Positions 23,611 through 26,412 of a DNA stretch of 27,075 nt are shown in pieces; within the stretch, counting starts at the first letter, position 1, and every line of letters starts with the position of its first letter. The stretch lies in the IMG/VR virus record IMGVR_UViG_3300044846_003122, positions 1 through 27,075 of that record. One strand, 5' to 3'. The notes below the pieces were generated by a model. It was not told where the DNA came from and did no database searches. It worked only from the letters and a program-made list of their open reading frames with translations. Source of the stretch: a virus. The position numbers and the translations under genes were made by a program.

Positions 23611-23645
23611 AGAAAAACCCCCTCCACCGTGAGGCAGAGGGGGTT
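23611..23645 (-). terminator. Intrinsic terminator after the capsid gene
   Basis: AACCCCCTC pairs with GAGGGGGTT (9 bp, perfect; 23637-23645 with 23616-23624), followed on the minus strand by TTTCTTT. It is about 40 bp after the capsid stop. Confidence 0.85.
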
Positions 23646-23652
23646 CAGGAAG

Positions 23653-23684
23653 CATAGCAGGGTGTGGGGGCTCACCCTGCTATG
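23653..23684. terminator. Second perfect hairpin next to the capsid stop
   Basis: CATAGCAGGGTG (23653-23664) and CACCCTGCTATG (23673-23684) form a 12-bp perfect stem with an 8-nt loop, three bases after the capsid stop codon. No T-run follows. It may protect the capsid mRNA 3' end or pause polymerase before the terminator at 23611-23645. Confidence 0.5.
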
Positions 23685-23687
23685 GGG

Positions 23688-24977
23688 TTAGACAGCGGGG
23701 GCGGATGTTTTGCGATTGAAGAGCAGCACGTAACCGAACTCGGTCTTGATCGGCTTGGTGGCGGAAGCCATCACACCACGGAAGAAACCGATGGTGCCGT
23801 CCGGGTTGGTCAGCTCGTTGGCGATGTTCTTCCAGTCGAACTTGCCCCGATAGGTGAGCGGGTCGAAGGTCAGACCAGAAGCACCACTGATCGGCTCGGG
23901 GATCTGGGACTCCATCACGTCTTGGTGCAGCACGTAGGCGGCCTCAAAGTCGGCGGTTTCATAGGCCGCGTTCGGCGTGATGACACCCTTGTCGCTGGAG
24001 ACGTAGGGATACACACGGTTGAGGGTGGCATTGCCGGAATCGCCAACGAAGCGGGGGGCGAGGTCGTCGATGAGGTGGTAGAACCCACGGTGGCTGCGCT
24101 CAATGCCGAGGGGGGCGATGAGCTCGCTGACCTTGGCGTTGTTGTAGCGGTAGTCGTCGCGGATACCGGCTTCGACGATCAGCTGGTAGGAGGCTTCCGA
24201 GGAGCAGACCAGACCGAAGACGGGGCGGGCGTTCTCGCGGCCGTAGGCATTGGCACCGGCACCCTGACGGACCAAGCGGAAGTAGATCGAATCAAGGACC
24301 TTGTTCGAGATATTGCCGGTCGGGTCCGCCGTAAGGTTGACGTTCTCAGACGCGACGCCTTCGGTGTTGGTGAGATACTCCGAAGTAGTCGCAGGGCTGG
24401 CCATGAGGGCCACGGTGTTGCCGCAGACGCGGTCATACTCGTCGCGGTAGCGCTCTTCCCACGAGTAGCGGGTCGAATCGGTCAGCGCATCCATGACAGC
24501 GCGGAGCTGCTCTTGGCGATAGGCGGCGAACCGGAGATCCTCCACGTTGATGCGGGGGGACTCAACGACCCCGCGCTTCAATGCGTATTGCTTGAGCTGG
24601 CGGGCGAAGGTGATGAACGACTTGCCGGTTTGGGCTCCAATGTTGGTGTCCTGAGCGCCGGGGATGATCTGATCCACAGTGCTCGCTGTATTTACCGTGC
24701 CTTCCGCAGCATTAGCTCCCACTTCAGACCAAGTGACGCCAAGGGTGGTGCCTGTGGAGGAAGTGCGGGGGAGGGCGCGGTCATAGACCAGAGTGCCAAG
24801 TGTGTAGCCCATTCCCGAAGGGAATGTGGTCTGCTTGATGAGGTCCATCCACGGGCTGGTGTGGACTGTGCGCCGATGGATGTCCTGACCAATGCGGTTG
24901 GCCTCTTGGGTCAGGATGGTGTCGATGACTTCAGTGCCTGTAGACAGCGAGAAAGTCTGGTCAAGTTTGACAGCCAT
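23688..24977 (-). CDS. Major capsid protein
   Basis: 429 residues, beginning MAVKLDQTFSLSTGTEVIDT. It follows a portal-small protein-scaffold order. Its own promoter, long leader and following terminator are what is expected for the most abundant virion protein. It has a helical N-terminal arm (VIDTILTQEANRIGQDIHRR), an alternating alpha/beta core and a C-terminal KTEFGYVLLFNRK, consistent in size with HK97-fold capsids without a cleaved delta domain. No protease gene is visible in the window. The ATG sits in AATTATG without an SD, so high translation must depend on the leader. The identity is inferred mainly from context and composition. Confidence 0.75.
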   Translation of the reverse strand: MAVKLDQTFSLSTGTEVIDTILTQEANRIGQDIHRRTVHTSPWMDLIKQTTFPSGMGYTLGTLVYDRALPRTSSTGTTLGVTWSEVGANAAEGTVNTASTVDQIIPGAQDTNIGAQTGKSFITFARQLKQYALKRGVVESPRINVEDLRFAAYRQEQLRAVMDALTDSTRYSWEERYRDEYDRVCGNTVALMASPATTSEYLTNTEGVASENVNLTADPTGNISNKVLDSIYFRLVRQGAGANAYGRENARPVFGLVCSSEASYQLIVEAGIRDDYRYNNAKVSELIAPLGIERSHRGFYHLIDDLAPRFVGDSGNATLNRVYPYVSSDKGVITPNAAYETADFEAAYVLHQDVMESQIPEPISGASGLTFDPLTYRGKFDWKNIANELTNPDGTIGFFRGVMASATKPIKTEFGYVLLFNRKTSAPAV

Positions 24978-25178
24978 AATTCAGAAAAGTGAAAAGTTGG
25001 AAAGTGGGGTTGGTTGGAAAAACAAGAACGGTGGGTCATCGCTGAAGCGGGCGATTGGCTCAGTGGCCGTAGTAGCTTCAAGGTTGACTCAGCCTGTTTA
25101 ACACCCAGTCTTTCGAACTGTATTCCTCCTTTCGGAGTGGCTCAGAGCAAGCCGTGACGTGGTGGGATCAGGAGGGTC
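24978..25178 (-). promoter_or_regulatory. Structured leader of the capsid mRNA
   Basis: About 200 nt between predicted +1 and the capsid ATG, without an ORF of note. On the minus strand it can form GGCT-7-AGCC, CTCC-GAAA-GGAG (GNRA-type tetraloop, then GGAGG), CAGT-TCGAAAG-ACTG, and GAAGC...GCTTC enclosing GGC/GCC. The last 45 nt are unstructured and pyrimidine-rich up to GAATTATG. I do not recognise a known riboswitch. It could be a translational enhancer or a regulatory RNA. Confidence 0.5.
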
Positions 25179-25184
25179 ACGGGT

Positions 25185-25213
25185 ATAATGCAACAAACCC
25201 GATTGGTTGTCAA
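25185..25213 (-). promoter_or_regulatory. Capsid promoter
   Basis: On the minus strand, consensus TTGACA (25208-25213), a 17-bp spacer and CATTAT (25185-25190). The -35 lies at the centre of the 35-bp palindrome at 25191-25225 and the left arm fills the spacer. Confidence 0.6.
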
Positions 25214-25225
25214 TCGGGTTTGTTG
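25191..25225. promoter_or_regulatory. 14-bp perfect inverted repeat over the capsid promoter
   Basis: CAACAAACCCGATT (25191-25204) and AATCGGGTTTGTTG (25212-25225) with a 7-nt loop GGTTGTC. As DNA it is an operator-like palindrome over the -35 and spacer. As RNA from the scaffold transcript it would be a hairpin 33 bp after that gene's stop, without a T-run on the minus strand. On the plus strand it is followed by AGATTTTTG. Confidence 0.8.
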
Positions 25226-25257: not shown

Positions 25258-26412
25258 TCAACCGCCGAAGGCCGCGTTGACAGCATCAGCAAAGGAGCGA
25301 CCGTCAGCCGTCGGGCCCGCGCCTGTGAACGAGCTCGCACCGCCACCGCCAGCACGCGGAGATGCGCGGTCGTATTTGGAGAGCTTGTCCGTCAGGGTGT
25401 CGAGCTCCTTGCGGAGGGAGACGTATTCCCGAGCGATCTTCGGGAGGAGTTGCGCCGCATACGACTGGAAGGCAGCGTCTACAGGGTTCAGGGTGCTTGG
25501 GTCGGTCTCGGCGACCTTCTTGCTGAGAGCGGCGAAATCCACCCCGTCAACGCCTTCGAGGAAGGTCAGCTTGGCGCGGATCTTGTCAGCGACCGCAGAG
25601 GCCGCTTTCTGGCGCTCTGCAGCCCTCTCAGCGAGTTGCTGCTTGGTTTGGGTCTCAGTGAGCTGCTCCGCCTCGCGGAGGGCTTCCTGAGCGTTCTCCT
25701 GCAGCACAGAGCGCTGGTGCAGGATGGGCTTGATCTGCTCGATGATCTTGTAGACGCGGAAACGGTCGCGGTCGGAGGCAGCGGCGAGGATGTCGGCAAG
25801 GGCTTCCTCCTGCGCGGCTTCGTCTTCCAAGGCAATGGCGTCGAGCAGCTCGTTGGCATCCACTTGGTATTTCTCGGCGATAGCGTCGGTCTCGGACACG
25901 AGCTCAGCCAGCGGCTGAGCAACGAGCTCCTTGTAGATCTGGCTGGACTCCAGCTTGGTGACCAGCAGCTCCTTCTCGTATTCCTCGACGCGGTTCTTGA
26001 GCTGGTCGTATTCGGGGTTGTCAGCAATGGCTTCGAGTTCCTTCAGGCGGGCTTCCCGTTCGTTGAGGGAGGACTCCAGCTCGGACAGGCGGGTCTTGCT
26101 GGACTTCAGCTCGGACTTCAGCTGCTTGAAGCGGCGTGCGGCCTGCGGGGTCCAGTCTTTGCCCACGTCGTCAGCGCCGTCGAGCTCGTCAAGGGGGCTG
26201 TCGGTCTCGGTGGCTTCCTCGGTCTCAGTGGCGGTGGTGGTCTCAAGTTCCTGCTCGCCGGACGCGTCGTCTTCGGTGCCGCTCGGGATCTCGGCAAGGC
26301 CCTTCGGCTCCGGGGCATCGTCGAGCCCTGTGTCGAAGTCGGCGAAGGCTTGGTCGATGCTGCCAATGAACCCGTCTTGCACGGGGGCTGTTTCAGTAGG
26401 GGTGTTTTCCAT
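25258..26412 (-). CDS. Scaffold protein (probable)
   Basis: 384 residues from MENTPTETAPVQDG at 26412, five bases after the preceding stop; ATG 26439 would overlap that gene. The N-terminal 100 residues are acidic and disordered (TTTATETEEATETD). A helical coiled-coil region follows (RRFKQLKSELKSSKTRLSEL to QKAASAVADKIRAK), then a short Gly-rich tail (SPRAGGGGASSF) and an end motif FADAVNAAFGG. Acidic, highly helical proteins between portal and capsid genes are phage scaffolds, with the C-terminal helix usually contacting the capsid protein. Identification rests on position and composition. Confidence 0.75.
   Translation of the reverse strand: MENTPTETAPVQDGFIGSIDQAFADFDTGLDDAPEPKGLAEIPSGTEDDASGEQELETTTATETEEATETDSPLDELDGADDVGKDWTPQAARRFKQLKSELKSSKTRLSELESSLNEREARLKELEAIADNPEYDQLKNRVEEYEKELLVTKLESSQIYKELVAQPLAELVSETDAIAEKYQVDANELLDAIALEDEAAQEEALADILAAASDRDRFRVYKIIEQIKPILHQRSVLQENAQEALREAEQLTETQTKQQLAERAAERQKAASAVADKIRAKLTFLEGVDGVDFAALSKKVAETDPSTLNPVDAAFQSYAAQLLPKIAREYVSLRKELDTLTDKLSKYDRASPRAGGGGASSFTGAGPTADGRSFADAVNAAFGG

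Follow-up and report, generated by a model that had tools for sequence, protein, structure and literature searches.

A conserved pseudoknotted leader upstream of the capsid gene in uncultured lake and ocean phages

The capsid leader and its predicted transcript

The viral DNA analysed here (IMG/VR record IMGVR_UViG_3300044846_003122, 27,075 nt, hereafter the window) contains an intergenic gap of 280 nt (25257-24978) between a scaffold-like gene, which ends at 25258, and the gene of the major capsid protein, both on the minus strand. What does this gap hold, and does it have a part in the expression of the capsid? A first-pass annotation had proposed a new structured RNA here, built from several adjoining hairpins, and the features of the locus that bear on this proposal are collected in Table 1. 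The genes for DNA polymerase, helicase and an exonuclease-like protein of the window phage lie on one strand, and its structural genes on the opposite strand. The capsid gene was identified by fold, as Pfam and PHROGs profiles gave no match for either the capsid or the scaffold; the top PDB matches of its AlphaFold model, which is of low confidence (pLDDT 56), are all phage capsids, the best with an E-value of 1.5e-6.

A consensus scan found the best sigma70-type site of the right half of the window inside the gap, with 10 of 12 consensus matches (TTGACA-17-CATTAT). Because of this promoter-like site at 25213-25185, a transcribed leader of about 200 nt is expected, and the position of the promoter predicts a transcript start near 25178. 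Most relatives likewise have a TTGAC(A) promoter upstream of the motif that we call domain A below. The palindrome around the -35 box may be an operator, or the end or terminator of the upstream operon overlapping the promoter. A palindrome around TTGACA is also kept in freshwater relatives, where its sequence differs (for example AGCTTCGTACAA...TTGTACGAAGCT).

No intrinsic terminator was found in the leader between its folded domains and the capsid ATG, and no conserved pairing was found across that ATG, so that the leader leaves it unhidden. The tail that precedes the ATG is indeed pyrimidine-rich and free of a Shine-Dalgarno (SD) motif, as had been noticed at first, but this is ordinary, since just 3 of the 24 window genes checked have an SD-like motif.

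Table 1. Features of the capsid locus, in positions of the window.
Feature	Positions	Strand	Details
Palindrome around the -35 box	25191..25225	.	CAACAAACCCGATT-gacaacc-AATCGGGTTTGTTG; perfect; -35 box central; arms about 14-16 bp, stem on + strand
Sigma70-type promoter	25185..25213	-	-35 TTGACA (25213-25208), 17-nt spacer, -10 CATTAT (25190-25185)
Domain A	25102..25164	-	helix P1 around H-type pseudoknot
P1, 5' strand	25156..25164	-	CACC (25164-25161), GUC (25158-25156); pairs with 25110-25108 and 25105-25102
S1 hairpin	25139..25153	-	GGCUU-GCUCU-GAGCC; GG and CC invariant; third pair covaries C-G/U-A
Invariant loop and pseudoknot strand	25143..25148	-	GCU (25148-25146); CUG (25145-25143)
Linker hairpin within pseudoknot	25126..25137	-	CUCC-GAAA-GGAG; freshwater group only; four covarying pairs
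Pseudoknot, 3' strand	25118..25120	-	CAG, partner 25145-25143; 3/3 pairs changed on both sides
Conserved tail	25113..25117	-	UUCGA (relatives: UUCUA)
P1, 3' strand	25102..25110	-	GAC (25110-25108), UG internal loop, GGUG (25105-25102)
Domain B pseudoknot	25038..25079	-	GAAGC (25079-25075)/GCUUC (25048-25044) interlaced with AUCGC (25055-25051)/GCGAU (25042-25038)
Domain B inner hairpin	25057..25068	-	GGC (25068-25066) with GCC (25059-25057)
Unstructured pyrimidine-rich tail	24978..25036	-	reaches capsid ATG; no SD, no intrinsic terminator
Major capsid protein gene	23688..24977	-	HK97-type fold predicted; PDB fold matches
Two hairpins directly after capsid stop	23615..23684	-	CATAGCAGGGTG/CACCCTGCTATG, then terminator-like GAACCCCCTCTGCC...GGGGGTTT with TTCTTT

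Covarying pairs and a family absent from Rfam

As a single sequence the leader is modestly stable (-50.9 kcal/mol, z = -1.84, with 9 of 200 shuffles equally stable), and the case for structure beyond chance comes from covariation and not from this stability. The leaders of the relatives have in common the motif GG-nn(n)-GCU-XXX-n-CC, followed after a linker by X'X'X'-UUCUA. Among 132 copies, collected as regular-expression matches that did not demand pairing of XXX with X'X'X', the two strands are fully complementary in 123; each of the three positions has changed on both strands, and there are eight to about ten kinds of pair combination (CUA/UAG, CUG/CAG, CCG/CGG, CCA/UGG, UCG/CGA, UUG/CAA, CUC/GAG and CUU/AAG). 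The 11-15 nt upstream of the motif pair with the stretch directly downstream to form helix P1; these arms are hypervariable in sequence among copies, and yet the duplexes of 74 dissimilar copies average -9.2 kcal/mol, far below the -4.2 (sd 0.2) obtained when partners are mismatched. The cells of P1 that are not Watson-Crick hold G.U in 36 cases and A.C in 14, a proportion that is reversed with shuffled partners, and this excess of G.U implies that RNA of this strand is the folding molecule. That the gap holds no functional RNA, and owes its likeness among relatives to a DNA element or to inherited similarity, might be argued from the palindrome with the -35 box close by and from the modest stability of the sequence by itself; such an explanation is made barely credible by the compensatory changes found at every pseudoknot position, by a P1 that varies and yet pairs, and by the wobble bias of the sense strand.

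In the window itself the P1 duplex amounts to -9.7 kcal/mol, and the minimum-free-energy fold of the 5' domain contains P1 together with the GGCUU/GAGCC and CUCC/GGAG hairpins. The latter two correspond to stems listed in the first-pass annotation (GGCT/AGCC and CTCC-GAAA-GGAG), which are real and show conservation or covariation across 22 freshwater relatives. That the loop letters GCU and UUCUA are fixed would imply more than simple blocking, namely recognition or tertiary contacts. In one leader, L174, GCU/UUC has changed jointly to GUU/UCC in both copies of the motif, and this joint change suggests that the invariant GCU and UUC letters are opposed in an extended helix.

Domain A occurs once in the freshwater relatives and twice in tandem in the marine ones, nearly always before the capsid gene; the group to which the window belongs adds to its one copy a second, different pseudoknot, domain B. 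Covariation in domain B lies in the AUCGC/GCGAU stem, which reads GUCGC/GCGAC, GUUGC/GCAAC or GCCGC/GCGGC in relatives, whereas the near-invariant GAAGC/GCUUC arm is supported by conservation and context. The original listing of GAAGC/GCTTC enclosing GGC/GCC thus had its stems right but overlooked the pseudoknot, as GCTTC lies in the loop of AUCGC/GCGAU. A CAGT/ACTG stem that had also been listed is not conserved, with all four of its pairs in only 6 of 22 relatives; the left half of this rejected hairpin is a pseudoknot strand and the right half overlaps a P1 strand. The region is structured as had been proposed, but its real fold consists of two pseudoknots and an enclosing helix. Across 22 aligned freshwater leaders, the window included, 96.4% of the cells are paired in this two-pseudoknot structure, 13 of its 23 pairs show changes in both partners, and covariation scores 0.304, compared to 0.161 (sd 0.011) for shuffled and at most 0.108 for slid controls. 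RNAalifold, which is unable to represent pseudoknots, instead proposes to pair columns 23/29 and 24/28 in the interior, in competition with the pseudoknot. The conserved fold of the capsid leader is, in our judgement, almost certainly real.

A covariance model was built from 16 freshwater relatives, leaving out the window and its nearest relative; it was kept to freshwater leaders because MAFFT put the CC strand off by one column when marine and freshwater leaders were combined. The model recovered the held-out window at 67.9 bits (E = 5.7e-19) with no other match in the 27 kb, found the held-out L001 at 64 bits, and gave a single match per record in eight viral records, of which seven had contributed to it. 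Rfam 15 at its gathering threshold gave no match for the window and 18 relative loci; at relaxed E-values the leader gives weak matches at chance level, and the marine leader L054 gives none up to E = 1. Literature searches returned no description of a capsid-leader pseudoknot element. The search against Rfam with a covariance model that had been proposed at the outset bears out the capsid leader as a new structured RNA, supported by covariation in homologues and by absence from Rfam. The window has all the parts by which the family is defined, namely P1 around GG-nn-GCU-XXX-n-CC ... X'X'X'-UUCNA, with complementary XXX and X'X'X', upstream of a capsid gene. As judged by comparative sequence evidence, the leader belongs to a family of cis-acting structured RNAs that had not been listed before. 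In a phage lineage that is widespread in lakes and oceans but uncultured, this well-supported family, absent from Rfam, is the mark of a single gene, and its covariation is clean enough for the direct design of probing and reporter tests.

Small riboswitches come to mind for a compact pseudoknot with fixed letters. In the preQ1-I, SAM-II and crcB/fluoride classes a hairpin loop pairs downstream, and crcB has an extra hairpin in its connecting loop; the capsid leader resembles them in topology, including the extra hairpin of crcB, but has other letters and no Rfam match. A riboswitch or other ligand sensor would also require an expression platform, which is absent here (there is no alternative terminator and the ATG is not sequestered), and would have to be limited to a single structural gene in a single phage lineage, all of which makes it very improbable.

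A proposed bracketing of the capsid message

The other minus-strand leaders had been put at 0-25 nt in the first-pass annotation, yet the gap downstream of the capsid gene alone measures about 170 nt and holds two hairpins. A hairpin after the capsid stop was found in 70 of 72 relatives, compared to 10 of 365 random stretches, at a median of 8 nt from the stop codon and with a median of 14 bp; these hairpins mostly lack a U-run, with at least five T in 14 of the 70. An element tied to the capsid gene, its position at or near the predicted 5' end and the hairpin after the stop are three facts that suggest a unit dedicated to capsid expression. The leader probably protects or boosts the message of the capsid, the most abundant one of the phage. 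The reading that we prefer, with a probability of roughly 40%, is that it would serve as a 5' mRNA cap for capsid expression, acting on stability or translation; the translational role first proposed for it is thus possible. On this reading the host polymerase would initiate at the sigma70-type promoter and the nascent 5' end would fold immediately into the knotted domains, becoming poorly accessible to decay of the RNase E type, which depends on the 5' end, while the open pyrimidine-rich tail would offer a free landing site to ribosomes and the strong hairpin just after the stop codon would shield the 3' side. The outcome would be a capsid message that is stable, heavily translated and for the most part separate inside the late operon, with a role like that of the bracketed gene 10 of T7. 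All four metagenome-assembled genomes (MAGs) with capsid-unit contigs contain RNase E/G. In most of the marine leaders whose promoter is clear, 13-21 nt separate the end of the -10 box from the GG of the motif, compared to 31 nt in the window; marine P1 is accordingly expected to begin at about the first transcript bases, and masking of the 5' end would be weaker in the freshwater group of the window, where P1 lies some 10-20 nt inside the predicted transcript.

The message of T7 gene 10 has a structured leader and a terminator after the gene, and 5' stabilisers of the ompA type are known. These systems resemble the present one in that a structured 5' leader and a 3' hairpin bracket an abundant capsid message; they differ in that T7 uses simple stem-loops and a phage polymerase, whereas here there are a host-type promoter and conserved pseudoknots with fixed letters. 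Two pseudoknots have been kept although simple stem-loops would do for 5' protection, which suggests a more specific role. The leader might also be a protein-free phage RNA module of new fold that acts directly on the host machinery, and whose tandem pseudoknots, fixed in their loop letters, would bind the RNA polymerase, the ribosome or a decay enzyme of the host and so commandeer expression of the capsid message; we consider this rather doubtful. The leader offers a compact, testable handle on high capsid expression in uncultured phages, and is a candidate for a portable expression or stability element.

The main rival to a 5' cap is an antiterminator like the put RNA of phage HK022, in which the nascent leader would bind the elongating RNA polymerase, allow it to pass the hairpin or terminator behind the capsid gene and so have the tail genes transcribed. 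Position and size fit: putL and putR are phage RNAs of about 70 nt directly downstream of a sigma70 promoter, which act without a dedicated protein, and the leader, like putL (PMC9378689), closely follows a sigma70-type promoter; it is about 70 nt long with two units in tandem in marine phages, has no expression platform and is accompanied by terminator-like hairpins downstream of the capsid gene. However, put RNA is described as two stem-loops (PMC9378689), with neither a pseudoknot nor these letters, whereas the conserved pairing here requires a pseudoknot; the plain stem-loops of HK022 stand at early promoters, the present motif accompanies the capsid gene alone, and the majority of post-capsid hairpins have no U-run. 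An antiterminator of this kind is therefore unlikely.

Distribution in lake and ocean phages

A search with the capsid protein gave 73 loci in IMG/VR and no relatives among the 50,697 phage records of INPHARED. The strict marine form of the domain A motif is present in 86 IMG/VR stretches, often as two copies 54-81 nt apart, and the 80 of these loci that were examined have it before a capsid gene wherever that gene is in view. A looser scan of 1.0 Mb on both strands gave 101 matches, 97 of them in capsid leaders.

This strict linkage to one gene would suit a protein-binding operator, with the capsid, the scaffold or another phage protein binding domain A and thereby tuning capsid synthesis, and so would the fixed GCU and UUCUA loop letters amid freely changing helices and the tandem copies, which are compatible with dimeric or cooperative binding. 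Yet the ATG lies neither inside the domains nor next to them, and we know of no HK97-type capsid that regulates itself through its leader. An operator is thus also improbable, and comes next after the antiterminator among the rivals to a 5' cap.

Five MAG contigs (L162-L166) carry both the motif and the capsid gene, and are assigned to Opitutae (two contigs of one MAG), Verrucomicrobiales, Blastopirellula and Acidimicrobiaceae. These labels hint at Verrucomicrobiota, a planctomycete and an actinobacterial MAG as possible hosts, with binning errors possible. They also bear on whether the pseudoknots might mechanically stop the 5'-3' exonuclease RNase J, in the manner of the exonuclease-resistant RNAs (xrRNAs) of flaviviruses. 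Viral xrRNAs block bacterial RNase J1 in vitro (PMC5760640), and they are, like the capsid leader, compact, pseudoknotted and often tandem; they differ from it in having no sequence relation, in lying in the 3' UTR rather than the 5' UTR, in their hosts and in a ring fold that is not evident here. RNase J passes the cut-off only in the Acidimicrobiaceae MAG and not in the other three of the four, bins that may be wrong, and this weakens a reading that we hold to be quite improbable.

In more distant relatives, compared by eye, the fold of domain A persists beyond its sequence letters. L070, with a capsid 46% identical, has an S1 of GCU/AGC; in L248, 39% identical to L070, the two copies read GCC/GGC and CCC/GGG; and among L249-L251 (35-36%), L249 and L251 pair as CGGG/CCCG, L250 has one G.U pair, and the P1 energy of L249 is weak. 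The motif was not seen by eye in L252-L255, whose capsids are the most distant (26-28% identical to L070). A sister group (L034-L036, L038, L040, L042 and L043), likewise read by eye, carries GUCC-UGC-CAGU-GGGAC ... ACUG-CGCUA, in which the topology of P1 and pseudoknot is as in domain A and the letters differ. Between the domain A copies of marine leaders (L054, L056 and L240, for example) there recurs a small hairpin with a loop like CUNUG, followed by a ACCCACAUAGA-like stretch; this hairpin resembles the GGC-CUAUGC-GCC hairpin of domain B.
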